Below, one piece after another: positions 32,151 through 52,607 of a stretch of DNA of 64,000 bases (position 1 is the stretch's first letter; every line of letters starts with the position of its first letter). Location: the NCBI RefSeq assembly GCF_008000935.1, contig NZ_CP042831.1, positions 1 through 64,000 of the forward strand. Reading direction: 5' to 3'. The DNA is from Flavobacterium alkalisoli (GTDB taxonomy: Bacteria; Bacteroidota; Bacteroidia; Flavobacteriales; Flavobacteriaceae). Position numbers and translations under genes: made by a program. Under the pieces are notes generated by a model. It had not been told where the DNA came from. It did no database searches and saw only the letters and a list, made by a program, of their open reading frames with translations.

Positions 32151-34094
32151 TCACTTCTTCACTATAATAAAATCTGACCTTCTGTTTAATGCGTGTTCTT
32201 CTTCGGTACACGGTACGCCATTACTACATTTGTTTTTCAACTGCGATTCTCCGTAACCTTTAACACTTTCTATTCTTGATGCATCTATACCATGCTCCAG
32301 GATATACTTATAAGTAGACTGCGCCCTGTTTTCAGAAAGCGTCATATTATAAGCATCCTTACCTCTTGAGTCGGTATGCGATTCAATCTTGATTACAATT
32401 GCAGGGAAATTTTTCATAATGTATACTACTTTATCAAGCTCTTCTGCAGCCTGCGGAGTAATATCCCATTTATCGTAATCAAAGTAAATAGGGTTGATAT
32501 CTACCTTTTCTACATTATCTTCTTTTTTAACCAAATCATCATAATTATTAAGTTCAAAGTTCACGTCTTTGGTCTCTAAATCATGTTTTTTATCGGTTTG
32601 CAGTTCTTTCTCTGCTTTCGTATGGTTTGGTTTAGAAGCTTCAATCTTAATTTTAGAATTACACGGAACCTCAACAATATAAGTTCCGTCTTCTTTTGTT
32701 TTTACTGAGTTTATTACATCGCCAAACTCATCATACACTTTTATGTCTGCCTGGTTTATGGCAACATTAAATTTAGCATTGGTTACCTTACCCGACACCA
32801 GTTGTTTGCAAGGTGGTTCCTGTCTTGTAAAATAATATATATCATCGTCTCCCTTACCCCCTTTACGGCTTGACGAGAAATAACCATACTTTTTCTCTTT
32901 ATCAATGATGTAAGAAAAATCGTCTACATTACTATTTACAGGTTTTCCTAAGTTTTTAGGTTCACCAAACTCCAATCTGCCTATAAGTTTGCTTTCAAAA
33001 ACGTCAAGCCCCCCTAATCCGTAATGCCCGTCAGAGGAAAAATAAAGTATACTGTCGTTTATAAAAGGAAACATTTCCCTGCCCGAAGTATTTATCTTAT
33101 CACCAAGGTTTTTAGGGTCTCCTAATTTACCATCGTCAAAAATCTGGGCTACATAAATATCTGTATCTCCATAGCCTCCCGGCATATCAGACACAAAATA
33201 GAGCCATTTGCCATCAGCACTTATAGCCGGATGCCCAACCGAATAGTCTTTACTGTCAAAAGGTAGTTTTTCAGTTTTAGAAAATTTCTCACCCTCAATA
33301 ACGCCTTTTATAATTTCAAAGTTTCCTGTACCACTCTTATCAGTAATAAGTTTGTCGTTAGGCTTTACAACATTGGCAGAATAATACACCGTTTTCAGGT
33401 CGGGCATAAAGGCTATAGTAGCATTATGATACTGCGACTGTTCTTTAGGCAAAAACTTTTTAGCGCTAAACAACGAGCCGTCCTCAGCATTTCTGTCAGC
33501 TACATACAGCTCCAGATAAGGCTGGTCGTTCCATGAATATATCTTACCTCCTAGTTTTGTGGTATCCCTGCTTGAAGAAAAAACAATCTGGTTACCATAA
33601 AATGCCGTTCCAAAGTCGGCTTTATCACTATTTGATGCCAAATTCATAACCGTATAATTAGAAGGCTCGGCATTAATACTATCAAGATATTTTCGCTGAT
33701 CTATAAATCTTTTAATCAAAACCTGATCTCCTTTATTATCAAGGCGTTTCTTTAAAAGTTCATCTGCTTTTTTATAATCTTCGGCAGCTCTCAAAGTTTG
33801 TATATACCTGTTAAAATAGGTATCATCCATATTATCGGCTAAAATGGTATTCAGTTTAGTATACCATCTTAACGCACTGCTGTTATTACCTGTAAAATAA
33901 TAAGCATCGGCAACATGCATTACTGTTTGCGTAGAGGGGGCTGGTTCTTTCTCAAGATATTCCTCATAGGCTTTTGCCGCTTCTACATAGGCAAGGTCTT
34001 CAAAAAGGCGATCTGCTTTTTTAAGCTGCCTGTTTTGGGCAAAACCTGATGCTATGCAAAATAATAAGCTGAATAAAAATAATTTTCTCATCAT
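32151..34094 (-). CDS. OmpA-family protein with TPR-like, PD40 and peptidoglycan-binding domains
   Basis: A 647-aa exported protein that probably tethers an outer-membrane complex to peptidoglycan. A signal peptide (LFLFSLLFCIASGFAQN) is followed by TPR-like helices (about 20-135), a WD40-like PD40 propeller (about 160-420; GKWLYFVSDMPGGYGDTDIY and FPFINDSILYFSSDG are typical blades), a carboxypeptidase-regulatory-like domain (about 430-505) and a C-terminal OmpA domain (about 530-647; HTDSRGKDAYNMTLSENRA). This layout accompanies PorP/SprF and large type IX-secreted adhesins in Bacteroidota. It is the last gene of the surface operon, 11 bases after the PorP/SprF gene. Confidence 0.93.
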   Translation of the reverse strand: MMRKLFLFSLLFCIASGFAQNRQLKKADRLFEDLAYVEAAKAYEEYLEKEPAPSTQTVMHVADAYYFTGNNSSALRWYTKLNTILADNMDDTYFNRYIQTLRAAEDYKKADELLKKRLDNKGDQVLIKRFIDQRKYLDSINAEPSNYTVMNLASNSDKADFGTAFYGNQIVFSSSRDTTKLGGKIYSWNDQPYLELYVADRNAEDGSLFSAKKFLPKEQSQYHNATIAFMPDLKTVYYSANVVKPNDKLITDKSGTGNFEIIKGVIEGEKFSKTEKLPFDSKDYSVGHPAISADGKWLYFVSDMPGGYGDTDIYVAQIFDDGKLGDPKNLGDKINTSGREMFPFINDSILYFSSDGHYGLGGLDVFESKLIGRLEFGEPKNLGKPVNSNVDDFSYIIDKEKKYGYFSSSRKGGKGDDDIYYFTRQEPPCKQLVSGKVTNAKFNVAINQADIKVYDEFGDVINSVKTKEDGTYIVEVPCNSKIKIEASKPNHTKAEKELQTDKKHDLETKDVNFELNNYDDLVKKEDNVEKVDINPIYFDYDKWDITPQAAEELDKVVYIMKNFPAIVIKIESHTDSRGKDAYNMTLSENRAQSTYKYILEHGIDASRIESVKGYGESQLKNKCSNGVPCTEEEHALNRRSDFIIVKK

Positions 34095-34105
34095 AATTAT
34101 ATTTT

Positions 34106-35038
34106 TTAGAAGAATCTTGGAGATTTAACACGTTGATTAGGAGGCAGAAGCTCAAATCGTAAAATAACTTCATGGGTACCGTTATTGTACTTATTAAGAT
34201 TTGTTACAGTATAGTCATAAGAATATCCTGCAAAAACACCTCTCGTTATCTGGAACCCTGCTAAGGCACTAACCGAATCGTCCCATCGGTATGAAGCACC
34301 TAAAGTTAACCTTTCGTACACTAAAAAGTTAGCCGAAAGGTCTACAGTTACCGGTGCACCCGATACTACTTTACCTAAAACAGCAGGTTTAAATTTCAAA
34401 TTATCAGATAAGTCAAACACATAGCCTCCCATAATATAATAGTGCAGCCTGTCTGAAACTGTAGACTCCTGAACATCATCATAATAATCAGAACGGATAA
34501 AGCTTGGTACAGAAATACCTGCATACATCTTGTCTGTATAGTAATAAATACCCGCCCCTATTGTGGGAGTAAGTTTATTATTAATGTTAGTGTTAAGTAA
34601 AGGATCGCCATCCTGATAATAAATACCTTTAGACCAGTCTATATCCATAACCCTTACACCGGCCTTTAAACCAAATGAAAGGTTAGCATCATATCCTACC
34701 GGAATTATGTATGCAAAATTAGCATTGGCAAAAAATTCCTGAGAAGGCCCTAGTTTATCATTAACTACACTTAACCCCAGTCCCATTCTTTCGTTAGCTA
34801 TTGGAGAATGTATACTAAACGCCTGCGTAGTTGGTGCCCCGTCAAGACCTACCCATTGCGAACGATGTTGCAGTATTCCTTCAAGGTGACCTACCGTACC
34901 CGTATAAGCCGGATTAACTGTAAGCGTGTTATACATATACTGGGTGTATTGAGGATCCTGTTGTGCTGTTACTGCAAATGCAGTAAAAAGCAGCCCTGTC
35001 AGGATATATCTTTTTATAAATTTTGGTGTGATTTTCAT
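34106..35038 (-). CDS. PorP/SprF-family outer-membrane protein
   Basis: A 310-aa outer-membrane beta-barrel protein of the PorP/SprF family, whose members are needed for export or surface attachment of type IX substrates with CHU_C-type C-terminal domains. The mature N terminus begins QQDPQYTQYMYNTLTVNPAY, a hallmark of the family, after a signal peptide (YILTGLLFTAFAVTAQ). Barrel-like strands follow to the C-terminal VILRFELL region. It lies 70 bases after the giant adhesin and 11 before the OmpA gene. By analogy to SprB and SprF, it is probably the dedicated partner of the 2427-aa protein. Confidence 0.93.
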   Translation of the reverse strand: MKITPKFIKRYILTGLLFTAFAVTAQQDPQYTQYMYNTLTVNPAYTGTVGHLEGILQHRSQWVGLDGAPTTQAFSIHSPIANERMGLGLSVVNDKLGPSQEFFANANFAYIIPVGYDANLSFGLKAGVRVMDIDWSKGIYYQDGDPLLNTNINNKLTPTIGAGIYYYTDKMYAGISVPSFIRSDYYDDVQESTVSDRLHYYIMGGYVFDLSDNLKFKPAVLGKVVSGAPVTVDLSANFLVYERLTLGASYRWDDSVSALAGFQITRGVFAGYSYDYTVTNLNKYNNGTHEVILRFELLPPNQRVKSPRFF

Positions 35039-35108: not shown

Positions 35109-38100
35109 TTATCTCATTATATACAACCAGCCTGTTTTAACCTTGCCGTCTACTTCCAGTACGTAGTAGTAAGTACCCACAGGAAGTTTCTCTCCTCTTC
35201 TAACAGTTCCGTCAACATTTGCAGTTCCGTCCCAATCGTTTTGATAACCTGACGTTTTGTATACAGATGATCCGAATCTGTTAAACACTTCCAGTTTATT
35301 ATCAGGGTAGAACTCAATACAATCAATCCTGAAGGTATCGTTAAGCCCGTCACCGTTTGGTGTAAACTCATTGTAAACTGTTAAGCAGGAAGGTTCAACA
35401 AATGCCGACGCTTCATTATTCTCTGGAATACTGTCTATCGGATTTGATCCTACAATAAAGGCCACATTTAGATAATCTCCACCAAACAATACCTGAGTTA
35501 CAATCTGTAATACTGCCGATTCTCCCGGAGCAAGCTGTGGTATTATCCAAATGCCCGAAACCGCATCATAAGTACCTTCTGTTACAGTATAATCTACAAA
35601 TTCATAACCGTCCGGCAGCTGTTCACTAACCTCAAGATCAGTAAATGTGCTTTCTCCATCATTAGTTACTGTAATCGTAAAAATAACATTTTCACCTATA
35701 AGCGGATTAAAATTGTTAACAGATTTTGTGATTGATAAATCAGAACAACTAACCACATTAACATCCAGTGAACCTTCTACCGTTCCGGCACATCCGTTAG
35801 GGTCTGTGTAAGAAACCGATATGTTACCTTCACCTATTGATGTCCATATAACTGTAGCTGTATTATCTGTAGCTGTACCTCCTTCTACAATTACACCTCC
35901 TGTTACTGTCCAAACATAATCTGTATTTCCTGCTTCGGTAGTGTAAACCGTCTCTGTACCATAACATGTCCTAGGGAAAGGGTTGGTTATAGTTGCTTCT
36001 GCAGTACCAAATATATTAACCGTTACCGCTAACCTTACAAGACTTTCACATCCTCCGTTTGTAATCGAAGCGTAATAAACACCTCCATCCGTTAACGGAG
36101 TATCTGTAGGTAGTGGCGCTCCTCCTGTTGGAGAAGAATACCATATAACTCCAGTCTGATTTGCCTGAAGATCTGCAACCGTTGGCATATCAACCGCACA
36201 GAAATCCTGAGTCGTATCGTTAGTTGTTGGAGTAATACCATTATTCACATTAACTGTTATTGCCAACCTGTCTATATTCTCACAACCATTTGCATTAACA
36301 AAAGCAGCATAATAGGTCATACCGTTTGCTAAGGCAGTAGAAGGATCCAGCGGCGTACCTCCAGTTGGCACCGCATAGAAGATAGTTCCCGCAGGTGACA
36401 CCTGTATGTCTGCTATTGTAGGCATGTCAACCGCACAGAAATCCTGAGTAGCATCTGTAGTAGTTGGTATCACACCATTATCTACCGTTACTGTTACTGC
36501 CAGGCGAATACTGCTCTCACATCCTGCTATTGACTGTACAGAAGCGTAATAAGTACTTCCGGATACAAGGGCTGTTCCAGGAGCAACTACGTTTCCGCCT
36601 GTTGCTGCATCATACCAGGTAACGTTAGGTTCGTTAACCTGAATATCGGCTACCGTTGGCATATCAATCGCACAGAACGTTTGAGTGGTATCATTAGTTG
36701 TTGGTGTAGTACCACTATCAACCGTTACTGTTACCGCTAACCTTACAGAGCTTTCACATCCGTCAGCGTCTGTTATACTTGCGTAATATATCATTCCGTT
36801 AACAAGGGCAGCAGTATCCAGCACCTGTGTACCTCCCGTTGCCGCAGTATACCAAATAACTCCGGTTTCATTTACCTGAATATCAGCAACTGTTGGCATG
36901 TCAACCGAACAGAATGTCTGATTAGTATTAGTCGTTGTTGGTGTAGTACCATTACTTAATGTAACCGTAATGGCCAGTCTTACTAAGCTTTCACATCCTG
37001 TAAGAGGATCTGTGTATGAAGCGTAGTATATCATACTATCTACAAGTGGTGTGCCTGCTGCGATAGCTACACCTCCCACTGCTGCATTGTAGAATGTAAT
37101 TCCGGTTTGGTTAACCTGAATATCATCTACTGTAGGGTTATCCGCTGCACAGAATGTTTGCGTAGTATCTGTAGTTGTAGGTGTCATTCCCGCATTAACA
37201 GTTACTGTTACCGCTAATCGTACAGAGCTTTCACATCCGTTAGGATTTGTAAGGCTTGCATAATAGATAGTACCATCTGTTAACAGCGTTGTATCTGCTA
37301 TAGCTGTACCACCTGTTGCAGCATCATACCATGTTACTCCGGTTTCATTTACCTGAATATCGGCAACTGTTGGCATCTCAACCGCACAGAAATCCTGAGT
37401 GGTATCTGTAGTTGTTGGTGTAGCAGCATCTTCAACAGTAACTGTTACTGCCAGTCTTACTGAACTCTCACAACCAGAAACAGGGTCGGTCAGGCTACCA
37501 TAGTAGGTTATGCCGTCTACTAAAGCAGTTGTGTTTGCGACCACTGTCCCTCCGGTTGGAGCATCGTACCAAACAACTCCGGTTTCATTAACCTGAATAT
37601 CATTAACTGTTGGTGCATCCACCACACAGAAGTTTTGCGTTGTATCATTTGTAGTTGGTGTGGCAGCATCATCTACATTTACTGTTACTGCCAGTCTTAC
37701 CGAACTCTCACATCCGCTAACCGCATCGGTTAGGCTTGCATAATAAATTCCGTCTGCCAGTGCGGTAGTATTGGTTACCATGTTTCCACCTGTTGCAGCA
37801 TCATACCAAACAACTCCTGCTTCATTAACCTGAATATCGGCAACTGTTGGCATATCAACCACACAGAAATCCTGAGTGGTATCTGTTGTAGTTGGTGTAG
37901 CAGCATCGTTTACTGTTATCGTTACAGCTAACCTTACAGAGCTTTCACATCCGTTAACCGCGTCAGTGAGACTTGCATAATAAACCATTCCGTTAGTAAG
38001 AGCAGCCGTATTAGCTATAAGGTTTCCACCTGTTGCAGCATCATACCATGCCACTCCGGTTTCGTTAACCTGAATATCGGCTACTGTTGGCATATCAACC

Positions 38101-41100
38101 GCACAGAAGTCCTGAGTCGTATCTGTTGTAGTTGGCGTAGCAGCATCGTTTACTGTCACTGTAACCGCCAATCTTACTGAACTCTCACAGCCGTTAACTG
38201 CGTCGGTTAAACTTGCATAGTATATTCCATTTGCAAGGGCTGCTGTATTGGCAACTATGTTACCGTTTGTAGCGGCATCATACCAAACAACTCCTGTTTC
38301 ATTAACCTGAATATCGGCTACTGTTGGGCTATCAACCACACAGAAATCCTGAGTAGTATCTGTAGTAGTTGGTGTGGCAGCATCATTTACTGTTACTGTA
38401 ACCGCTAATCTTACTGAGCTCTCACATCCGTTAACCGCATCCGTCAGACTTGCATAGTATATTCCGTTTGCTAAGGCTGCTGTATTGGCAATCATGTTAC
38501 CATTTGTAGCGGCATCATACCAAATAACTCCGGTTTCATTAACCTGAATATCGGCTACTGTTGGCATATCAACCTGACAGAAGTCCTGAGTAGTATCTGT
38601 AGTAGTTGGTGTCGCAGCATCATTTACTGTTACTGTTACAGCCAGTCTTACTGAGCTCTCACAGCCGTTAACCGCATCCGTCAGACTTGCATAGTATATT
38701 CCGTTTGCCAAGGCTGCTGTATTGGCAATCATGTTACCATTTGTAGCGGCATCATACCAAATAACTCCGGTTTCATCAACCTGAATATCGGCTACTGTTG
38801 GCATATCAACCTGACAGAAGTCCTGAGTAGTATCTGTAGTAGTTGGCGTAGCAGCATCGTTTACTGTTACTGTAACCGCCAATCTTACTGAGCTCTCACA
38901 TCCGTTAACTGCATCAGTCAAACTTGCATAGTATATTCCGTTTGCTAAGGCTGCTGTATTGGCAATCATGTTACCGTTTGTAGCCGCATCATACCATGTT
39001 ACTCCGGTTTCATTTACCTGAATATCGGCTACTGTTGGCATATCAACCTGACAGAAGTCCTGAGTCGTATCGGTAGTTGTTGGTGTCGCAGCATCGTTTA
39101 CTGTTACTGTTACAGCTAATCTTACTGAACTTTCACAACCGTTAACCGCATCAGTCAGACTTGCATAGTATATTCCGTTTACTAAGGCTGCTGTATTGGC
39201 AATCATGTTACCGTTTGTAGCCGCATCATACCATACAACTCCTGTCTCGTTTACCTGAATATCGGCAACTGTTGGCATATCAACCAAACAGAAGTCCTGA
39301 GTAGTGTCTGTTGTGGTTGGCGTAGCAGCATCGTTTACTGTTACTGTAACCGCCAATCTTACAGAACTCTCACATCCACTAATCGCGTCGGTTAAACTTC
39401 CATAATATATTCCATTTGTAAGGGCTGTTGATACCGATAAAGCTGTCCCTCCTGTAGCTGAAGTATACCATAACACTCCGGTTTCGTTAACCTGAATATC
39501 GGCAACTGTCGGCATATCAACCGCACAGAAGTCCTGAGTGGTATCTGAAGTAGTTGGTGTAGCAGCATCGTTTACTGTTACTGTTACAGCTAATCTTACT
39601 GAGCTTTCACAGCCGTTAACTGCATCAACTTGGCTTCCATAATAAATTCCGTTTGCAAGAGCTGTTGATGCCGATAAAGCTGTTCCTCCCGTAGCAGAGG
39701 TATACCAAATCACTCCGGTTTCATTAACCTGAATGTCAGCTACTGTTGGGCTATCAACTAAACAGAAGTCCTGAGTGACATCATTTGTTGTTGGTGTAGC
39801 GGCATCATTTACGTTAACAGTTACGGCTAATCTTACCGAACTTTCACAGCCTGTAACAGCGTTGGTTAAGCTTGCATAGTAAACCATTCCGTCTACTAAT
39901 GAAGCTCCGTTAGCTACCACGCTTCCTGCCGCTGCGGCATCATACCAGGTTACTCCGGTTTCGTTAACCTGAATATCGGCTACTGTTGGTCCGTCCACTA
40001 AACAGAAGTCCTGAGTAGTATCTGTAGTAGTTGGTGTTGGAGCATCGCTTACATTTACTGTAACAGCCAATCTTACCGAACTTTCACATCCTGTAACAGG
40101 ATCAGTTAATACCGCATAGTAAACCGAACCGTCTACAAGTGCTGTAGTAGTTGCAACAACATTTCCTCCTGTTGCGGCATCATACCATATCACTCCGGCT
40201 TCATTTACCTGAATATCGGCTACAGTAGGACCGTCAACCACACAGAAATCCTGAGTAGCATTTGTAGTGGTTGGTGTTGCGGCATCACCTACAGTTACTG
40301 TAATTGCCAGTCTGTTTTCACTTTCACAGTTATTTACCGTTTCAAACTGGGATGCATAATATATTGTACCATCTACCAGTAATGTAGTGTCCGGGAGAAG
40401 GTTTCCTCCTGTTGCGGCATCATACCATCTGATATTGGTTTCATTAATCTGAATATCGGCCAATGTAGGCATATCTACTACACAAAACAGTTGTGTAGCA
40501 TTTGTTGTAGTAGGTGTTGCTACCGGGTTAATTAAACACGGATCACAAATTAAACCTGTATTATCGTAGTTGTCGTTATAGTAGTCGTCCATAACGAATA
40601 CATCGGCAACATAGTTGTTGAAGTCTCCTCCTAACATACCGGAATCTGTAGACTGCGGATCGGTATCATTATTAAATAATCTTACTCCGTCAGCACAACA
40701 GGTAGCATTAGGTAACACGAATGTAAACAACAGCAGTTCGTTACCTGTTACAAAATCAAACGCAGAACCATCGGTTGCTATAGCGTGATAATCATTTGCC
40801 GTATCGGAAGCAGGAGCATATACCTGCGAAGCATCCAGCCATACACCTCCGTTAACCGAAGTTACTGCCAAAGCCTGATTATCTACCGATGCTGGTAATA
40901 CAACCGAAATCTGGCTACCTGCCGATATAAAGAAGTCACTTGCCGAGAAGTTAGGTAGAGCATACACTTCATAAGTACATGTGGCAGGATCAAACCTTAC
41001 AGTAAAGTCTATCATAGGATCTACCGTACAGGCAGGGCTTGTAGGGTTAGGGTCACAAGGGTTTAGCGGGTTGCTTCCACCGGTAACCTCATCACCATCA

Positions 41101-42392
41101 TTAATTCCGTCACCATCACTATCCGGGTTTGTAGGGTTAGTTCCTAAAGCGCTCTCTTCACTATTAGTAAGACCATCCCCGTCCTGATCACAAGGTCCTG
41201 CCCCCAAATTAGGATCACAAGGATTTAGAGGATCAGTTGTATTTGTAACCTCATCACCATCTAACACTCCGTCTCCGTCTGTATCTGCTAACGTAGGATT
41301 TGTTCCAATCAAGGCTTCCTCTGCGTTGGTTAAACCATCGTTATCTCTATCACAAAGAGGATTATTTAAATTAGGGCTACAGGCACTAAGCGGATCGGTA
41401 CCGTTTGTTATCTCACTACCGTCATTAATGCCGTCTCCATCTGTGTCTGGGTTAGTTGGATCTGTACCATATATAGCCTCCTGAGTATTGTTAAGTCCGT
41501 CACCGTCCTGATCACACACACCTGCCGTATTATCCGGCACACATGGGTTATTATCATCAGGATCGGTTCCTGCCGGAGAACCATCTCCGTCAGCATCTGT
41601 AGGACAGCCTCCTGTTGGTACAGGACTACACGGATCTAAGGGATTACTTCCTCCTATAACCTCATCGCCGTCATTAATACCATCGTTATCCGTATCAGGA
41701 TTTGTAGGATCAGTTCCTATCAATGCTTCTTCCGAATTATTTAATCCGTCACCATCCTGATCACAGGTAGCAAAATTAGCATTAGGCACACACGGGTCAT
41801 TATCATCAGGATCTGTACCCTCTGCAACACCGTCTCCATCATTGTCCACCACTCCGCATGATGTACCTGAATTGTTGTAGTTTACACCATAATAATCCTG
41901 CAGGTCAAAAACATTACCCATGTAATTGCCAAAATCAGCTCCGTTCATTCCCGTATCGGAAGGTCCAGGGTCTAATGAATTATTATAGATACGCAAATCG
42001 TTTACACAGCCTGCGGCTAAGGTAAAACGGAAGAGCAACAGCTCATCTCCGTCAACAAGATTTATATTAGAACCGTTTGTGGCGATACCATGAAAATCTT
42101 TTTCCGAAGCTGCTCCCGGTGCATACACCTGTGAGTTATCAGACCATGGCCCCCCGGCAACAGTTGTTATTGCAAGTGCACCATCAGTAACAGAAGCCGG
42201 AAGGACAACTGTTATCTGACTACCGCCTGCCAGAAAGAAATTATTCTGGGTAAAATCAGGCCTTGCATACACTTCATACGTGTTCGTTACCGAAACATAT
42301 TTCAGGGTAAGGTCTATTTGCTGCGAATACATTTGTTGTGCGGAAAACAACAATGTTACGAGCAATAATATTTTAAGTAGAAAACTTCTCAT
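35109..42392 (-). CDS. Giant surface adhesin, 2427 aa, with 19 Ig-like repeats and CHU_C sorting domain
   Basis: A type IX-secreted surface protein. Order of parts: signal peptide ([16 protein letters not shown]); an unassigned beta domain (about 25-178); about ten Asp-rich thrombospondin-type-3 calcium loops (about 180-455, such as [12 protein letters not shown]); a second copy of the beta domain (about 459-620); 19 tandem repeats of about 79 aa (about 622-2130) with motifs [47 protein letters not shown]; a PKD/Ig-like stretch (about 2131-2215); a DUF11-like domain (about 2216-2330); and a CHU_C/gliding-type C-terminal domain ([12 protein letters not shown] to the end). Repeats 6-10 are nearly identical. 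The PorP/SprF and OmpA genes follow. Function is probably adhesion or gliding, as for SprB. Confidence 0.93.
36000..40525 (-). repeat. 19 tandem coding repeats of about 237 bp in the giant adhesin gene
   Basis: The 19 units each encode one Cys-pair Ig-like module of about 79 aa. In the centre (about 38100-39540) the period is exactly 237 bp over at least five units, as seen from the recurring CAGAAGTCCTGAGT sequence at 38576, 38813, 39050, 39287 and 39524. The units there differ by only a few bases. The outer repeats are more diverged, a pattern typical of repeat arrays expanding and contracting at the middle. Confidence 0.9.
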
Positions 42393-42456: not shown

Positions 42457-45400
42457 TTATTGGGGGATCTGCTCTATCATATTGTTGTAGTTGTTTAAAA
42501 GACTCGTGTTTAAAGGGTATGTTAATACTGAATTTTGCATTACCTGCCTTTCATTATTTATACCATCATATTTTATTTTTCCATCCATATTTATATCTCC
42601 CGACAGGTAGCCTACAGCTTCATAGTTTAATACCTGGCCTGTGTTATTTACATGAGAAAGCACCTGGCTTCCCATTGTTTGCCTGTCGTTATTTACACCG
42701 TCATATTTTATTTTTGTATCGTAGTTGGCGTTACCTGCATAAAGTGCCCTGCCCACATAGCCTGTTATGTTTATATTATTCATAGCCACATTATCCGGGC
42801 TTGCAGGCAAATGATATAGTTGTGCATCTGTAATGGTGGTAAAATCTACAGTAACCGATCCCATTGAAGCCGTTACCGGACCAGATGTCATTGCTCCAAA
42901 GTGGTTTCTGTGTTTTACCGATACATAGAATGTTTCCGGCATTGATGTTAACCTGAAAGCACCTCCCGTAGCAGGGTCTACTATATCTCCGTCACGCTGT
43001 AATAATACCGAATGTGTTTCAAGTATGGTTGTCTCATCTGCAGCATCTCTTATTTCAACAAATATCCAGTCTACAATTGCATCACCTGTACCATCGTTGG
43101 CATCTAAAACTGTACTGTTTGTTGTTTCATCTCCTGCATTATTCACATGAGTGAATCTTGCATTTAATGTATTGCTGTATGGCTGACTTGTAGGTATTAA
43201 TCCTGCTGTCCTTAAATCATCACGCATCAAACCGTCTGATGTTCCCGATAAGGCGCCCTGCAGCATTACTTTTATATTAAGTGCTATATCGCATGATGTG
43301 GTAAGTGTCACCGTTACAGGAAGTCTTGAGGTACTCTCACAACCTGTTACTCCATCTGTATAAGTAGCATAATAGGTTGTATTGTTTACCAAAGCTGTAC
43401 CTGCCGATAGTGACGAACCGCCTGAAGAAGAAGCATACCATGTTATATTGCTTTCATTTATCTGAATATCTGCAAGTGTAGGATCGTCATACCCACAAAA
43501 CTCCTGAGTATCATCAGCAGTTGTAGGTGCCGAAGCATTGTTTATGGTTACTGTTACTGCCAGTCTTACTGAGCTTTCACAACTATTTTGCGTTAATGAA
43601 CCATAATACGTAGTACCATCAACTAAGGCTGTACCTCCGGTAACTACGCTACCTCCTGTAGCTGCTGTATACCAGGTAACAGTACCTCCGGCTGCTGCCA
43701 AATCAGCAACTGTAGGGCTATCTATGGCACAAAAACTCTGAGCAGTATCTCCTGTAGGAGTTGAAGCATCGTTTACGGTTACCGTTACCGCTAACCTAAC
43801 TGAACTGGCACAACCTGAACCACCATCGGTTAAAGATCCGTAATAAGTAGTACCATCCACTAAAGCTGTACCACCAGCTATTGAACTGCCTCCTGTAGCC
43901 GCTGTATACCAGGTAACAGTACCTCCTGTAGCAACCAAATCGCTAACTTTAGGACTATCTATAGCACAAAAAGTCTGTTCTGTATCCCCGCCCGGTGTAG
44001 CGGCGTCATCTATATTAGCAGTTACGGCAAGCCTTACAGAACTTTCACATCCTGAAACGCCATCAGTAATTGAGGCATAGTATATAGTGCCATCCACTAA
44101 TGCAGTACCTGATGATACTACACTACCACCAGTTGCAGCATTGTACCATGTTATTGTGCCTCCTGTAGCAGATAAATTGGCTACCGTAGGGTTATTTATA
44201 GCACAAAAGTTTTGAGTTGTTGCACCTCCCGGTGTGGCAGCATCATCTATATTAACTGTTACCTCTAAACGGGTTGCACTAATACAGCTACCTACAATCA
44301 AACCTCCATAGTAAGTGGTCCCGTCAGTAAGGGAATCAGTATCGCTGTATGCAGTACCTCCTGTAGCTGCATTATACCAAATAACATCCGATTCGTTTGT
44401 TGCTAAATCTGCTATAGTTGGATTATCTACTGCACAAAAATCCTGTGTGGCGTCGCTTGTTGTTGGTGTAGGTGCATTACCCACAGCTACTGTTACAGCA
44501 AATCTTACTGAACTTGCACAACCTGAAACACCGTCTGTTAATGACCCATAGTAAGTAGTACCATCAGTTAAAGCTGTACCTCCGGCAATTGTACTGCCTC
44601 CTGTAGCTGCTGTATACCATGTAACCCCTGCTTCATTTGTAACAAGATCTGCTACTGTAGGACTATCGGCAGTACAAAAACTTTGAGAAGCATCTCCGGT
44701 TGGGGTTGCAGCATCGTTTATGGTTACTGCTACTGCTAAACGGGTTGCACTGGCACAATCTACGTCGGTCATTGAAGCATAATATGTGGTACCGTCTGTA
44801 AGAGCAGTTCCTGTTGCAAGGGCACTACCTCCGGTAGCGGTAGTATACCATGTTATTGTACCTCCTGAAGCCGTAAGATTTGCAACTGTAGGGTTATTTA
44901 TGGCACAAAACTCCTGGGTAGTATCTCCCGTTGGCGTACCAGGATCGTCTATATTAGCCGTAACCGCCAAACGAACTGCACTTGCACATCCTGTATCTGC
45001 ATCAATCATAGAGCCGTAATATGTAGTATTATTTACAAGAGGCGTATTAGTTGCAATGGCACTGCCTCCTGTAGCTGCATTATACCACGTAACTCCTGTT
45101 TCATCTGTAACAAGACTTGCTATTGTTGGATTATCTACTTCACAAAAGTCCTGAATAGCAAACCCCGTGGGTGGAGGTGCATCACCTATGCTTACCGTTA
45201 CAGCAAAGCGCGTGGCACTTGAACAACCTGAAACACCATCTGTTAACGACCCATAGTATGTTGTTGCGGTTGTTAGTGCCGTACCTGCCGTTACAATACT
45301 ACCTCCTGTGGCAGCATTATACCAGGTTACATTGCTTTCGTTTACATTTAAATCTGAAACTGTTGGATTATCTATTGCACAAAACTCCTGTGTAGCATCT

Positions 45401-46656
45401 CCTGTAGGGGTATCAGCATCGTTTATGGTAACTGTTACCGCTAATCTCACTGAACTTTCACATCCTGATACTCCGTCAGTAATGGAAGCATAATATGTAG
45501 TTCCATCTACTAAATCAGTGGTACCGGCGACAACACTTCCTCCTGTAGAAGCATCGTACCAGATTATTGTACCTCCGTTTGCAACCAAATTGCTCACTTT
45601 AGGATTGTTTATGGCACAAAATTCCTGTGATGCATTTCCTGTAGGGGTGGCAGCATCATCAACATTTACCGTTACTGCTAACCTTACTGAACTTTCACAT
45701 CCGTTTACACCATCTGTAATAGAGGCATAATAAGTAGTGCCGTCTATTAAAGCAGTTGCACCGGCTACAACACTACCTCCGGTGGCCGCGCTATACCAGG
45801 TTATTGTACCTCCAGAAACAACTATATCGCTTACTTTAGGACTATCAACCAAACAAAAGTCCTGAGTAGCATCTCCGGTTGGAGTTGCAGCATCGTTTAT
45901 AGTAACTGTTACTGCAAATCTAGAAGAGCTTTCACATATTCCCGGTTCCAACGCTCCATAATAAGTAGTGCCATCAGTTAAAGCATCGGTACTGTTGTAG
46001 GCAGTGCCGCCACTGGCGGCATCATACCATACAACATCTTCCTCGTTGGTAACCAAATCTGCCACTGTAGGGTTTTCTATTTCACAAAAATCCTGAGTAG
46101 CATTTCCTGTAGGGGGATCTACACTGGTTGTATTATCGTAGTTTCCGTTATAGTAATCATCAAAAGTGAAGGCATCTCCAAAATAGCTGTTAAAGTCCCC
46201 TCCCAACATTCCTGATGCTGTAGAATCGGGGTCACTTCCATTTTCAAACAACCTCACTCCGGGAGCACAACAGGCACTGCCCGGTAATTCAAAAGTAAAA
46301 ATCAGCAGTTCCTCTGTAGCAACAAAACTTAGTAAACCTCCGTTTGTTGCTATTGAGTGGAAATCGCTGGTTGTGTCTGCTAAAGGTGCATATACCTGCG
46401 AATTATCTACCCATGATAATGATGATGCAGAAGTTACTGAAAGGCTACTATCGTCTACAGCTTCCGGAAGCACTATTGAAATCTGGCTTCCTCCTGCTAC
46501 AAAAATATCACCGGTAGTATCTGATGTTGCATATACTTCATAGCTACAGTTAGCCGTGTCGAATTTTATGGTAAATTCAACGCTCTGTCCATAGAAATAT
46601 GTAGTACTTAATAGCATTGTTATTAGTAATGTTATTTTTAGGATAAAACTTTTCAT
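42457..46656 (-). CDS. Surface repeat protein, 1399 aa, with 12 Ig-like repeats and dockerin-like end
   Basis: An exported protein. After a signal peptide (ITLLITMLLSTTYFYGQ) comes one copy (about 25-175) of the unassigned beta domain also found twice in the 2427-aa protein. Twelve repeats of about 77-80 aa follow (about 180-1118), with motifs [22 protein letters not shown] and [12 protein letters not shown]. The last 280 residues are a module shared with the 816-aa protein: a beta-rich part (FRLTSMPETFYVSVKHRNHF) and two calcium-loop motifs, NANYDTKIKYDG and DINMDGKIKYDG, then the ending NNYNNMIEQIPQ. No usual T9SS C-terminal domain is visible. It is the second gene of the surface operon, 61 bases after the 816-aa gene. 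Confidence 0.88.
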   Translation of the reverse strand: MKSFILKITLLITMLLSTTYFYGQSVEFTIKFDTANCSYEVYATSDTTGDIFVAGGSQISIVLPEAVDDSSLSVTSASSLSWVDNSQVYAPLADTTSDFHSIATNGGLLSFVATEELLIFTFELPGSACCAPGVRLFENGSDPDSTASGMLGGDFNSYFGDAFTFDDYYNGNYDNTTSVDPPTGNATQDFCEIENPTVADLVTNEEDVVWYDAASGGTAYNSTDALTDGTTYYGALEPGICESSSRFAVTVTINDAATPTGDATQDFCLVDSPKVSDIVVSGGTITWYSAATGGSVVAGATALIDGTTYYASITDGVNGCESSVRLAVTVNVDDAATPTGNASQEFCAINNPKVSNLVANGGTIIWYDASTGGSVVAGTTDLVDGTTYYASITDGVSGCESSVRLAVTVTINDADTPTGDATQEFCAIDNPTVSDLNVNESNVTWYNAATGGSIVTAGTALTTATTYYGSLTDGVSGCSSATRFAVTVSIGDAPPPTGFAIQDFCEVDNPTIASLVTDETGVTWYNAATGGSAIATNTPLVNNTTYYGSMIDADTGCASAVRLAVTANIDDPGTPTGDTTQEFCAINNPTVANLTASGGTITWYTTATGGSALATGTALTDGTTYYASMTDVDCASATRLAVAVTINDAATPTGDASQSFCTADSPTVADLVTNEAGVTWYTAATGGSTIAGGTALTDGTTYYGSLTDGVSGCASSVRFAVTVAVGNAPTPTTSDATQDFCAVDNPTIADLATNESDVIWYNAATGGTAYSDTDSLTDGTTYYGGLIVGSCISATRLEVTVNIDDAATPGGATTQNFCAINNPTVANLSATGGTITWYNAATGGSVVSSGTALVDGTIYYASITDGVSGCESSVRLAVTANIDDAATPGGDTEQTFCAIDSPKVSDLVATGGTVTWYTAATGGSSIAGGTALVDGTTYYGSLTDGGSGCASSVRLAVTVTVNDASTPTGDTAQSFCAIDSPTVADLAAAGGTVTWYTAATGGSVVTGGTALVDGTTYYGSLTQNSCESSVRLAVTVTINNASAPTTADDTQEFCGYDDPTLADIQINESNITWYASSSGGSSLSAGTALVNNTTYYATYTDGVTGCESTSRLPVTVTLTTSCDIALNIKVMLQGALSGTSDGLMRDDLRTAGLIPTSQPYSNTLNARFTHVNNAGDETTNSTVLDANDGTGDAIVDWIFVEIRDAADETTILETHSVLLQRDGDIVDPATGGAFRLTSMPETFYVSVKHRNHFGAMTSGPVTASMGSVTVDFTTITDAQLYHLPASPDNVAMNNINITGYVGRALYAGNANYDTKIKYDGVNNDRQTMGSQVLSHVNNTGQVLNYEAVGYLSGDINMDGKIKYDGINNERQVMQNSVLTYPLNTSLLNNYNNMIEQIPQ
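43300..46120 (-). repeat. 12 tandem coding repeats in the 1399-aa surface protein gene
   Basis: The 12 diverged units encode the same Ig-like module as in the giant adhesin, but a different subtype (TGDATQDFC start instead of [12 protein letters not shown]). They are far less similar to each other at DNA level than the central repeats of the neighbouring gene. Confidence 0.85.
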
Positions 46657-46717
46657 AGGCTTTATTATAGTGGTTAGGTAAAAAAGACTTTGAAAGGCAT
46701 AAGCCGATTGTCAGTTT

Positions 46718-49168
46718 TTATTGTGGTATTTGCTCTACCATTCCATTATAATTGTTGAGTCCGCTGGTATTTAATGGGTATGTTATTACTATATTCTGTA
46801 TTATCAGCCTTTCATTGCTTGCACCATCATACAATACTTTCCCGTCCATATTTACATCTCCCGAATAATATCCGGTTGCACTGGAAAAGTTTAGTACCTG
46901 ATTTGTATTTGAAGGGTGAGAAAGTACCTGGCTGGCAAGAACCTGCCTGTCGTTTGCAGCACCGTCATATTTTACTTTATTATCATAATTTGCATTACCG
47001 GCGTATAGTGCTTTTACACCACTAACAGTAACCATAGAGTTTGCTCCTGTAAATCCGCTAAGGCTAAACAAATCGGCACTATCTATTGTTGTAAAATCTA
47101 AAGTAACTTCACCATTTAGTACGGTTAGCAACTGGCTGCCCATAGCTCCAAAATGGTTTCTGTGTTTTACAGCTATGTAGAAAGTTTCAGGTAATCCGGT
47201 AACTCGCAGAGAGCTTCCGTCTGATGCAACCACATCTCCGTCACGCTGTAAAAGTGCCGATACTGTTTTGAATATTGTTTGCGAATTTGCTGCATCTCTT
47301 ATCTCGATAAAAATCCAGTCTACAATAGCATCATTTGTACCAGAGTTAGCATTAAGCACAGTATTTGTAGTTGTTTCTGTACCTCCGCCATTTACCTGAG
47401 TAAATCTTGAATTCAGCGCGCTGCTGTATGGTTGGTTTAACGGAATTAATCCCTGACTCCTTAAATTGTCTCTCATAACACCAGGTGTTGAGTTGTATAA
47501 TGCACCCTGTAATAACACTTTAACGTTAAGGGTAACATCACACAAATCATTTAAGTTTACAGTTATTGCAAACCTTGTTACGCTTTCACAACCTGTTAAT
47601 GCATCTACCTGAGCTGCATAATATACTGTTGCATCCGTTAATGCATCGGTATCTAAAAACTGTGTACCTCCTGTTGCCTGATCATAAAAAACAACATTGC
47701 TCTCGTTAACAACAATATCACCCACAGTAAACCCTCCGTAAGAACAAAACTCCTGAGTCGCTGTACCACTAGGAGTAGCTACACTGGTTACAGTAACATC
47801 TACTGCAACTCTTAACGATTCTTCAGTACAGCCTATCCTTGCAGCAGCCACATAATATGTTACATCTGCAGTAAGTACAGGTGTTGTAAAAGGATCACCT
47901 GCAGCTACCGTTGCTAAAAGGTTACCGTCTTCTGCTGCATCATACCATCTAAGTTCATTAGCGGGATCAGTATCCGCATAAAGATCTACTGTACCTCCCT
48001 CACAGCCTCTGGCATCCTGAGTATCTACATCTGTAATTTCCGGTTGAGCAGCTGTTCTGGTTATACCAAAAAAGTCAAGATTTTGTGATACGGATAATCC
48101 CACAAACGATTCAAACTCTAAAGTTATCCTGTCTACAGGTGCTCCCGGAGTTAAAGGAATAGATATAATTTCACCTCCGTTTAGGTTTAAAAGGTTTAAG
48201 CTTAAAAGTGTAGATAGTGTTACATCCTGTACAAGGGTAGCACCATTATAAGACCTTACATTTATATTATTAGCAAGATTTAAATCTAAAATAGTTCCTG
48301 TAAGCCTCATTCGCAGAGTAAACTCATCTGTAGATAGTGAAGATCCCTCAAAATATACGGTTTGTTCTATAGCACCTGCAACGCCTAAAACCCCAAAGCT
48401 AAGTGTTGAAAAATTATCCGGATCGGTATCAATAGCATTCTCAGGATTTTGTACCCCATTTGTCCCTAAATCTATAAGATCAAGGTTTAACCCTGATGCA
48501 CTGAATGAAGTAAACACCGGCTGACCACAATTTGCAGGAGTCGTTACATAAAAGGCGTCATAAACAGACAAGTCTTTTACAGTACCCAGACCTAATAATG
48601 AACCACCTGTCCTGTTAGTTATTCTAATTCTGTTATAAGCCTGATCCGGAGTTATCATTACATAAAAATCTCCGGCATTATCAACTACTATCCTCATCCT
48701 GTCTGTAGCAAACTCTCCTGCATCCTGACTGTCACCCTGCAAAACAATTGTGGTATTATTTTTTGCCTGTACAGTAAATTCCTGACTCCCTGTTAAAACT
48801 ACACCCAGTACATCTGCCAGTAGTTCTCCTAAACTTCCTCCTAATAATGAGTTTAATAAATCGTCTTCCGTTTCAATTTTTACATAAGAAGTGGTATTTG
48901 CAGGTAATGTTGAAGGAAACTGCAATTCAATATATCCGTTATACGCACCTAAGCCTAGAGCAACTCCTGAATTTGCCCTAACATTGGCAAACGTTGTAAG
49001 ATTACTATCATAAGCATTGGTTGCATTATCTATATGGGCCGAATTGGAAACTGTAGCCGAATTAGCGTAAACCCTCGTTTGCGCCTGCATTTGTAAAAGC
49101 GGTAAAAACGCAAAAACAGCAAAAAATATGAGGGTTTTTAATCGGTTTGGGGTAATTTTCAATATCAT
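46718..49168 (-). CDS. Surface protein, 816 aa, first gene of the adhesin operon, dockerin-like end
   Basis: An exported protein with a signal peptide (LIFFAVFAFLPLLQMQAQT). The N-terminal 370 residues are beta-rich, starting with a segment resembling discoidin-like domains (SATVSNSAHIDNATNAYDSN), and are unlike the other two proteins. Two Ig-like modules (about 375-545) resemble the neighbours' repeats (LRWYDAAEDGN and VVFYDQATGGTQF). The final 275 residues match the C-terminal module of the 1399-aa protein, with NANYDNKVKYDG and DVNMDGKVLYDG calcium-loop motifs and the ending NNYNGMVEQIPQ. It has a promoter box about 92 bases upstream and starts the five-gene surface operon. No T9SS sorting domain of the usual types is seen. 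Confidence 0.85.
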   Translation of the reverse strand: MILKITPNRLKTLIFFAVFAFLPLLQMQAQTRVYANSATVSNSAHIDNATNAYDSNLTTFANVRANSGVALGLGAYNGYIELQFPSTLPANTTSYVKIETEDDLLNSLLGGSLGELLADVLGVVLTGSQEFTVQAKNNTTIVLQGDSQDAGEFATDRMRIVVDNAGDFYVMITPDQAYNRIRITNRTGGSLLGLGTVKDLSVYDAFYVTTPANCGQPVFTSFSASGLNLDLIDLGTNGVQNPENAIDTDPDNFSTLSFGVLGVAGAIEQTVYFEGSSLSTDEFTLRMRLTGTILDLNLANNINVRSYNGATLVQDVTLSTLLSLNLLNLNGGEIISIPLTPGAPVDRITLEFESFVGLSVSQNLDFFGITRTAAQPEITDVDTQDARGCEGGTVDLYADTDPANELRWYDAAEDGNLLATVAAGDPFTTPVLTADVTYYVAAARIGCTEESLRVAVDVTVTSVATPSGTATQEFCSYGGFTVGDIVVNESNVVFYDQATGGTQFLDTDALTDATVYYAAQVDALTGCESVTRFAITVNLNDLCDVTLNVKVLLQGALYNSTPGVMRDNLRSQGLIPLNQPYSSALNSRFTQVNGGGTETTTNTVLNANSGTNDAIVDWIFIEIRDAANSQTIFKTVSALLQRDGDVVASDGSSLRVTGLPETFYIAVKHRNHFGAMGSQLLTVLNGEVTLDFTTIDSADLFSLSGFTGANSMVTVSGVKALYAGNANYDNKVKYDGAANDRQVLASQVLSHPSNTNQVLNFSSATGYYSGDVNMDGKVLYDGASNERLIIQNIVITYPLNTSGLNNYNGMVEQIPQ

Positions 49169-51080: not shown

Positions 51081-51926
51081 ATGATTATGCTTTCTTTTGA
51101 GACTACCCGCGAGGTTGTCTTGCACCTTACCACAAATCATTTAAAGGGTAATTTTACCCTATGGTACCCTTATGCCCTTTTTCAAAATTCTATAACGGAA
51201 AAACAAACCGGGTTTGCTGCTAAAGACTCGGTCTTCGAACATCCTGAGGCTACTCTTTTCATTATTTGTACCGTTATAATTATAGCTACATTATTTGTAG
51301 CACATATGCTTGTAAAGAAGAAGCTGAAGAAACAAAAAATACTAACTAACTACGAGACCGAAATACGCATAGCAAAAAGGGTTCATGATGAAATTGCTAA
51401 TGAGATTTACAACGTAATGTGCCATGCATCGTCTAACGATCTTGGTGAGGTTAATAATAAAGAACGGCTTTTAATAAACCTGGAAACTGTTTATAATAAG
51501 AGTAGGAATATTTCCAGGGAAATAAACAACATAGATACGGGAAGGGGATATAAAAGTCAGTTAAAACTTATGCTTAGCGAGTATCAGGCTGCCGATGTAA
51601 ACATTATAATAAAAGATGTAGACAAGATAGACTGGAATAAGATAAGTGAGACTAAAAAGATCGCTGTTTACAGGGCATTGCAGGAAATCATGGTAAATAT
51701 GAAAAAACACAGCAATGCAACTTTAGTGGTCATCAACTTTAAGCTAAAAAGAGGAAAAATATGCATTAGTTATTCGGATAACGGAATAGGGATGCAAATA
51801 AGTCCGATTACTTCAAAAAACGGACTCTTAAATGTGGAAAACCGTATGGTTTCTATAAATGGTAAGGTTATTTTTGAGCCTAAGCCGGGAAAAGGACTCC
51901 ACCTCACACTAACCTATCCCGCATAA
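51081..51926 (+). CDS. Short sensor histidine kinase, HPK7-like
   Basis: A 281-aa inner-membrane kinase. It has a short N-terminal part of about 58 residues without a recognised sensor domain, one membrane helix (about 59-77), a HisKA_3-type dimerisation helix with phospho-His102 (KRVHDEIANEI) and an HATPase_c domain with N box Asn206 (QEIMVNMKKHSNA) and G box DNGIGM (233-238). It lacks the TPR-type periplasmic sensor common in related Bacteroidota kinases. The response-regulator gene follows after 6 bases, so they form a pair. The signal sensed is unknown; the start could also be the second in-frame ATG (Met3). Confidence 0.88.
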   Translation: MIMLSFETTREVVLHLTTNHLKGNFTLWYPYALFQNSITEKQTGFAAKDSVFEHPEATLFIICTVIIIATLFVAHMLVKKKLKKQKILTNYETEIRIAKRVHDEIANEIYNVMCHASSNDLGEVNNKERLLINLETVYNKSRNISREINNIDTGRGYKSQLKLMLSEYQAADVNIIIKDVDKIDWNKISETKKIAVYRALQEIMVNMKKHSNATLVVINFKLKRGKICISYSDNGIGMQISPITSKNGLLNVENRMVSINGKVIFEPKPGKGLHLTLTYPA

Positions 51927-51932
51927 CCTCAT

Positions 51933-52607
51933 ATGTTTAAAAAAATCCTTATAACAGAAGATATAGACAGTATTAACCTGGGCCTTACAACTGCCCTGAA
52001 GGAAAAATACAATGCGGCCGTTAGCAGTACAAAATACTGTGATGAAGCTTTCTTAAAAATTAAAAAAGCCATCTACGAAAAAGAGCCGTATGATTTGATT
52101 ATTACTGACTTATCTTTTACTGAAGACCATAGAGAATCTAAAATAGCATCGGGAGAAGAGTTAATAAAAACTATAAAAGCCGAACAATCTGACATTGGTG
52201 TAATTGTATACACTATTGAAGACAGGCCCTATAAAATAAAATCCCTGTTTGAAGACTATAAAATAGATGCCTATATAATTAAAGGAAGGGAAAGTACTCA
52301 AGAGCTTATAGAAGCCATAGATACCATATCTAAGTCCCAAAAAAAGAGTACTTACATTTCGCCAAAATTAAATCAGCTTTTAAAAGAAGATCTGTTCTTT
52401 GAAATAGAACAGTATGATATCGATTTAATAAAAAATCTCTCTAAAGGATTAACACAGGATGAAATAAGCTATTTATTAAAAAAAGAAGGAAAAACCCCTT
52501 CGAGTATAAGTAGTATAGAAAAAAGAATAAATAAGCTGAAAATATTTTTTAAGGCCAAAAACACCATACATCTTATCTCTATAGCAAAGGATATGGGGAT
52601 TATTTAA
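51933..52607 (+). CDS. Response regulator with diverged LuxR-like output domain
   Basis: A 224-aa cytoplasmic regulator. The receiver domain (about 4-125) has the acidic pair Glu9/Asp10, the phosphoacceptor Asp59 (LIITDLSF), Thr94 and Lys117, so it should be phosphorylated by the adjacent kinase. The C terminus (about 150-224; LSKGLTQDEISYLLKKEG and SSISSIEKRINKLKIFF) looks like a LuxR-type helix-turn-helix, but the usual conserved residues are changed. It probably binds DNA. The gene begins 6 bases after the kinase gene. Its target genes are not evident from context. Confidence 0.88.
   Translation: MFKKILITEDIDSINLGLTTALKEKYNAAVSSTKYCDEAFLKIKKAIYEKEPYDLIITDLSFTEDHRESKIASGEELIKTIKAEQSDIGVIVYTIEDRPYKIKSLFEDYKIDAYIIKGRESTQELIEAIDTISKSQKKSTYISPKLNQLLKEDLFFEIEQYDIDLIKNLSKGLTQDEISYLLKKEGKTPSSISSIEKRINKLKIFFKAKNTIHLISIAKDMGII

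Follow-up and report, generated by a model that had tools for sequence, protein, structure and literature searches.

The operon and its products

The subject of this analysis is an operon in the first 64,000 nucleotides of contig NZ_CP042831.1 of Flavobacterium alkalisoli (assembly GCF_008000935.1, positions 1 to 64,000), a stretch referred to below as the window. Five minus-strand genes, separated in the window's open reading frames (ORFs) by intergenic gaps of 61, 64, 70, and 11 bp, encode in order an 816-aa protein, a 1399-aa protein, a 2427-aa protein, a PorP/SprF protein, and an OmpA-family protein (Table 1). The first two end in a shared module, and the second and third carry copies of one N-terminal domain (N-domain). 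We consider it very likely that the module is a variant X-module–dockerin dyad (the plug) and that its partner is the N-terminal cohesin-fold domain (the socket) of the next gene's product, which would give a head-to-tail chain. The folds come from structure prediction, and gene order and the agreement of subtypes from sequence comparison; together they suggest binding, its dependence on calcium, the pairing of plug with socket, and a surface location through an anchor of the type IX secretion system (T9SS).

The window proteins were scanned against Pfam and NCBIfam. The first three products of the operon have a signal-peptide-like start, as judged by eye. The 2427-aa product matches CHU_C/TIGR04131, a type B C-terminal domain (CTD) of the T9SS, which bears out the original prediction that the next gene of the operon encodes a type IX adhesin; the PorP/SprF protein is the likely partner of this CTD. 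A profile of the N-domain found no such cohesin-fold domain in the 816-aa protein. Residues ~30-370 of that protein (window 48059-49081) belong to no family, with a very weak match to a PNGase domain (E 0.39), and this N-terminal half, which would form the tip of the chain, may be where binding takes place.

Table 1. Positions of the operon products and their parts in the window; roles within the chain are putative.
Feature	Position	Strand	Description
816-aa protein, putatively chain-initial	46718..49168	-	Signal-peptide-like start, N-terminal region of unassigned fold, two Ig_7 stretches, C-terminal X-dockerin-like module
X-dockerin-like module, 816-aa protein, residues 545-816	46721..47536	-	
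Loop 1 of 816-aa module, residues 725-740	46949..46996	-	NANYDNKVKYDGAAND
Loop 2 of 816-aa module, residues 771-786	46811..46858	-	DVNMDGKVLYDGASNE
1399-aa protein, putative middle protein	42457..46656	-	Signal-peptide-like start, cohesin-fold N-domain (predicted), twelve Ig_7 stretches, X-dockerin-like module
Cohesin-fold N-terminal domain (predicted), 1399-aa protein	46138..46581	-	
X-dockerin-like module, 1399-aa protein, residues 1124-1399	42460..43287	-	
Loop 1 of 1399-aa module, residues 1309-1324	42685..42732	-	
Loop 2 of 1399-aa module, residues 1354-1369	42550..42597	-	
2427-aa protein, putative anchor	35109..42392	-	Signal-peptide-like start, two N-domain copies with TSP3 repeats, nineteen Ig_7 stretches, DUF11, type B T9SS CTD
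N-domain copy 1, putative anchor	41877..42317	-	Matches the profile of the N-domain with the predicted fold
N-domain copy 2, putative anchor	40566..41012	-	N-domain profile match
Type B CTD, putative anchor	35118..35381	-	PF13585, TIGR04131
PorP/SprF family outer-membrane protein	34106..35038	-	Pfam/NCBIfam
OmpA-family protein	32151..34094	-	Resembles CHU_0125 and PorE, below the cut-offs of those models

Copies, distribution, and loops of the C-terminal module

The two modules, of 272 aa in the 816-aa protein and 276 aa in the 1399-aa protein, are 63% identical. They lie where the original prediction had placed a shared C-terminal module of about 275 aa in these two ORFs, both proteins finish in EQIPQ as it had said, and the loops that it had put about 45 aa apart are spaced by 46 residues in the 816-aa protein and by 45 in the 1399-aa protein. 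No third copy was found in the 3.99-Mb genome. No Pfam or NCBIfam family spans the module; within its bounds, Pfam gives just two short matches at E ≤ 1 (E 0.25 and 0.38). Database proteins matching the module at E ≤ 1e-3 number 527, far above chance, and in the 120 matches listed the match reaches to within 5 residues of the protein end (one of them, P0073, is a protein cut short inside the module). Among 192 module genes, the module lies within 30 residues of the C-terminus in 191; in the remaining one (L179:5878), 638 residues follow it. Named carriers include Flavobacterium, Saprospiraceae, Lewinella, Spirosoma, Runella, and Rudanella, and the closest named record among the matches listed is Flavobacterium beibuense, with a module 97% identical. 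In an even sample of the phylum, 51 of 395 genomes hold the module or part of it, many of them the beta-domain alone.

The loops were compared in an alignment of 95 modules, made up of 93 of the 111 locus modules and the two from the window; the 74 named loci had been taken from the best 80 of at least 554 confirmed stretches. The consensus D/N-x-N-x-D-G-x-V-x-Y-x-G-x-x-N-D is present twice, and in loop 1 position 1 is mostly N and G is absent from position 6. The original prediction had the later Asp sitting one residue earlier than in classical dockerins. This did not hold up, as position 11 is poorly conserved (Asp in 19/95 modules in loop 1 and 17/95 in loop 2, Gln being commonest) and the conserved acidic residue is at position 16, with Asp in 92 and 86 of the 95 modules and Glu in a further 1 and 8 for loops 1 and 2, respectively. 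Both window second loops have Glu at this position. With the last ligand at position 16 in 94/95 modules for either loop, the canonical 12-residue loop spacing is absent. The offset is better read as a putative insertion of four residues ahead of the last ligand. In the predicted structure, the module helices 196-205 and 242-251 begin at the position-16 acidic residue. Set against the role of these loop positions in dockerins, the module has two loop–helix repeats, acidic residues or Asn at positions 1, 3, and 5, and a conserved acidic residue at the helix entry.

The module as a putative variant X-module–dockerin

Structure prediction gave the module an X-dockerin fold, with an Ig-like X-module packed with a dockerin, in keeping with the dockerin likeness first proposed for it. 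Pfam does not report this kinship: Dockerin_1 (PF00404) had no match in the window proteins and none for the 95 modules among the matches listed (25 of 35 families), and the genome as a whole had 0 matches to Pfam Dockerin_1 or Pfam Cohesin at E ≤ 1e-3. More distant relatives lack the four residues before the last acidic position, and their loops read like ordinary dockerin loops. Dockerin_1 was found below its cut-off in 6 of 10 such relatives, which had been picked from 28 loci (L079-L106), and at one locus (L224) a beta-domain is followed by a Dockerin_1 match over the cut-off, at 24.0 versus 22.9 bits. Another relative (L100:553-2211) carries loops in which the insert ahead of the last acidic residue is much longer than that of the window module.

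Profile comparison with hhalign joins these groups stepwise. The module loops match those of the distant relatives (90%, P 1.5e-6), and the distant relatives match a set of 29 Dockerin_1 sequences, drawn from 29 of 30 loci (96%, P 2.6e-9). The direct comparison of module and Dockerin_1 is weak (18%, P 0.0014) and places a four-residue gap before the last ligand; controls with the beta-domain, N-domain, and cohesin gave P 0.085-0.61. Profiles built from the module and N-domain alignments were also run against PDB sequences, where nothing relevant came up. On the predicted fold, we take the module to be a putative variant X-module–dockerin dyad.

The N-terminal domain and its predicted cohesin fold

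The N-domain comprises residues 26-173 of the 1399-aa protein, with two further copies in the 2427-aa protein and no others found in the genome. The domain of the 1399-aa protein has a predicted cohesin fold. That the N-domain is cohesin-like and the module X-dockerin-like had been hypothesized from gene order, ahead of the structure predictions. Sequence searches did not lead to cohesins: Pfam scans gave 0 families for the window N-domain, and the 74 members of the N-domain alignment (71 of 74 locus domains and three window domains) matched 15 families between them, none of which is a cohesin. An hhalign comparison of the N-domain with Pfam-type cohesins gave no clear match, so the cohesin likeness would not have been seen from sequence alone, and a search started from the N-domain of a CTD-bearing partner found no cohesin annotation. 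As a side observation, 127 of the 395 sampled genomes have a Pfam cohesin match at E ≤ 1e-3, and in 111 a match passes the cut-off; the 127 include 33 of the 51 with a module or beta-domain (the genome counts 51, 33, and 4 were matched by eye between lists); cohesins in Bacteroidota look under-described.

Gene order

To follow the order of genes, a discovery set of 94 loci (the 74 named loci and 20 further regions) and a held-out set were used, the latter consisting of 40 regions less 3 that duplicated discovery loci. The resulting 37 held-out loci represent one family, and some share genomes with the discovery set. A protein start was called socket-like if it held the present N-domain, a domain designated P390N, or a Pfam-type cohesin. 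Such starts were found in 93/123 discovery genes that follow a module gene versus 34/551 other genes, and in 60 of the 62 next genes of the held-out loci versus 37 of 242 others. A socket-like domain is also present in 24 of 31 module proteins encoded behind a module gene versus 8 of 63 that are not, a contrast which gives the usual pattern as plug; socket…plug; socket…end. The same order bears on another explanation, that the module acts on its own as a calcium-stabilised tip adhering to sugars or other material. Its beta-domain and calcium-type loops would suit such a role, but the module is C-terminal and the next protein has a cohesin-fold domain in most loci, and we regard this explanation as extremely unlikely.

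The ends of the chains vary. The 205 N-domain genes end in a module (52), a type A or B CTD identified with local profiles (42), one of two recurrent tails (29 and 18), or an unclassed end (43), and 21 are cut. The two tails, seen in Spirosomataceae-like genomes (L021:10840-11475, L021:11476-12339, L065:11978-13249), are C-[VLI]-P-x-x-[IVL]… in the 29 genes, and a stand-alone N-domain protein of ~190 aa ending in APxLSK in the 18. No CTD family was found in the two CxP proteins scanned (L065, L068). Behind relatives with ordinary dockerin loops, type A CTD proteins follow in 10/10 chosen cases, these partner proteins having been picked for CTD-looking ends. At locus L145, a neighbouring protein has both a cohesin (PF00963) and a type A CTD (PF18962) over the Pfam cut-offs, and a similar neighbour at L152 falls under both. 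We also observed a ~390-aa family behind ordinary-loop module relatives (e.g., L139:8178-9383, L141:9458-10630, L144:9370-10470), with an N-domain of cohesin-like look, a fibronectin-like part, and a type A CTD; some homologues are named Ignavibacterium or Melioribacteraceae. Local profiles detected PorP in 9/74 loci and type B CTDs in 10/74, and within the reach of these profiles PorP linkage is a minority feature.

Subtype agreement of module and N-domain

By profile scores, modules and N-domains each fall into two subtypes. The subtypes of adjacent modules and N-domains agree in 81/81 discovery pairs and, with thresholds fixed, in 59/60 held-out pairs versus about 43/60 expected by chance (a figure obtained by hand arithmetic from the margins). 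When the clusters of the following N-domains are mapped on the module tree, they change 2 times, whereas shuffling gives 44 changes on average. Among the 41 middle proteins, there is 1 change on the tree with the downstream N-domain versus 3 with the protein's own, and the distance correlation is 0.58 for the module and the downstream N-domain versus 0.38 for the module and its own.

Because module and N-domain adjoin on the DNA, with a median gap of 74 bp in adjacent pairs, the two could co-vary merely as neighbours inherited together as a cassette, their jobs being unrelated. We consequently compared agreement by distance. It held in 49/50 cases for N-domains 0.9-4.9 kb off, with one or two genes between, whereas module and N-domain within one protein agree in 41/50 and, when less than 1 kb apart (39-528 bp), in 0/3. 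As both predicted folds are, in addition, those of a known binding pair, joint inheritance is a highly improbable account of the agreement.

Some points weaken the case for docking between neighbours. P390N was defined from the neighbours of discovery module genes, which makes about a dozen discovery positives partly circular, and a relationship of P390N to the N-domain is no more than suggested. The more distant N-domains may be duplicates of the adjacent ones. Ward clusters of modules do not correspond one-to-one with N-domain clusters, so the two-subtype statement is based on the profile scores and the tree count. A two-cluster average linkage of modules was discarded, as an outlier spoiled the split.

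Relation to type IX secretion

The original prediction had left open whether the module is a sorting signal or a docking domain. Its statement that the two module proteins lack a type A or B CTD stands, with no match to PF18962/TIGR04183 or PF13585/TIGR04131 at E ≤ 1. NCBIfam, which we take to include a model for the ChiA-type (type C) CTD, gave zero families at E ≤ 1 in either module protein. Among the matches listed for the 95 modules (25/35 Pfam and 25/37 NCBIfam families), there is one PF18962 match, at E 0.11, and no other CTD. By local profiles, module and CTD occur together in 0 of 192 proteins, which fits a chain with a single anchor. SprA is present in 51/51 module-bearing genomes versus 253/344 others of the 395-genome phylum sample, an association confounded by phylogeny: the SprA-negative genomes number 91 and, among the 20 of them that are listed, 15 come from one family.

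The module could be a further C-terminal T9SS sorting signal, recognized directly by either the translocon or a PorP/PorV-like shuttle. Its C-terminal position in nearly all module genes, the lack of any protein that combines it with a CTD, and the presence of SprA in every module-bearing sample genome are in line with this, as are the PorP gene within the window cluster and the 15 proteins of a database search that share the N-domain, of which 7 end in the module and 8 in a type B CTD. However, the predicted fold is that of an X-dockerin, the sole CTD match is the one at E 0.11, module subtype goes with that of the cohesin-fold domain in the following protein, and co-occurrence with the T9SS is confounded as described. 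A sorting signal is therefore very unlikely as the explanation. Of the two roles originally offered, docking is favoured by the predicted X-dockerin fold, the cohesin fold next door, and the subtype agreement, and sorting has no positive sequence evidence; it may be an added role beside docking.

In the proposed chain, each module would dock in the cohesin-fold domain of the following protein. The 816-aa protein, with a plug only, would dock on the 1399-aa protein, with socket and plug, which in turn would dock on the 2427-aa protein, with two sockets and a type B CTD. The chain would be held on the cell via this CTD and PorP/SprF, and binding of the putative dockerin to the cohesin is presumably calcium-dependent. 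A tentative extension of the docking model is that plug proteins bind the CTD protein while still periplasmic and pass the outer membrane with it through SprA as one folded complex, so that a single CTD would serve each chain. Plug proteins have a signal-peptide-like start (131/147 by a crude test) without a CTD, and a share of chain ends have one; on the other hand, many chains, mostly of one family, end without a known CTD, and assembly outside is equally possible. It is also conceivable, if doubtful, that Bacteroidota assemble ordered, calcium-locked surface fibres through a cohesin–dockerin relay, with the sequence of assembly set by that of the genes. At least two orthogonal plug–socket subtypes would then guard against mis-assembly, only the last link would carry a T9SS signal, and the giants without a CTD would be exported as pre-docked hitchhikers.

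Comparison with known systems

Cohesin–dockerin pairs are best known from cellulosomes. The cellulosomal type II cohesin–X-dockerin pairs (PDB 2b59, 5g5d, 4u3s) share with the present system a two-part X-module and dockerin, the fold of the presumed partner, and a C-terminal plug with the socket on another protein. Here, however, four additional residues stand ahead of the last ligand in the loops, identity in the X-dockerin rows is 11-16%, the carriers are adhesin-like repeat proteins rather than cellulases, the putative anchor is a T9SS CTD, and the plug gene usually stands ahead of the socket gene. According to a report on Candidatus Stygibacter (Cloacimonadota; PMC8542988), a cohesin scaffoldin has a C-terminal domain for attachment to the cell's own surface (citing a T9SS review) and dockerin partners. 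The dockerins there are on degradative enzymes taken by one tandem-cohesin scaffoldin, whereas single sockets and plugs in an ordered chain are proposed here, and Pfam detects neither domain. The last protein of the window chain and the gene that follows are of the kind described for T9SS type B CTD and PorP/SprF clusters (PMC10202324); the substrates described there have a CTD each, unlike the two upstream window proteins. As for Bacteroidota proteins with Dockerin_1 (PF00404) or Cohesin (PF00963), the distant beta-domain relatives resemble them in their insert-free loops and weak or, once, above-cut-off Dockerin_1 matches, and L145 has the adjoining PF00963–PF18962 protein, while the window genome matches neither family. 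Among the papers found in literature searches on cohesin, dockerin, T9SS, piggyback export, and Bacteroidota, no title or abstract opening points to such a relay.

A known fold pair, undetected by Pfam, seems to link adhesin-like giants in gene order in many Bacteroidota, and two domains can be named in several hundred largely unannotated proteins. If correct, this would account for the surface retention of secreted giants that have no T9SS domain, provide a test case for piggyback export through the T9SS, and supply new plug–socket pairs of distinct specificity. Elsewhere in the window, a histidine kinase-like and a response regulator-like protein (51081-52607) are conserved next to the cluster in five Flavobacterium loci.

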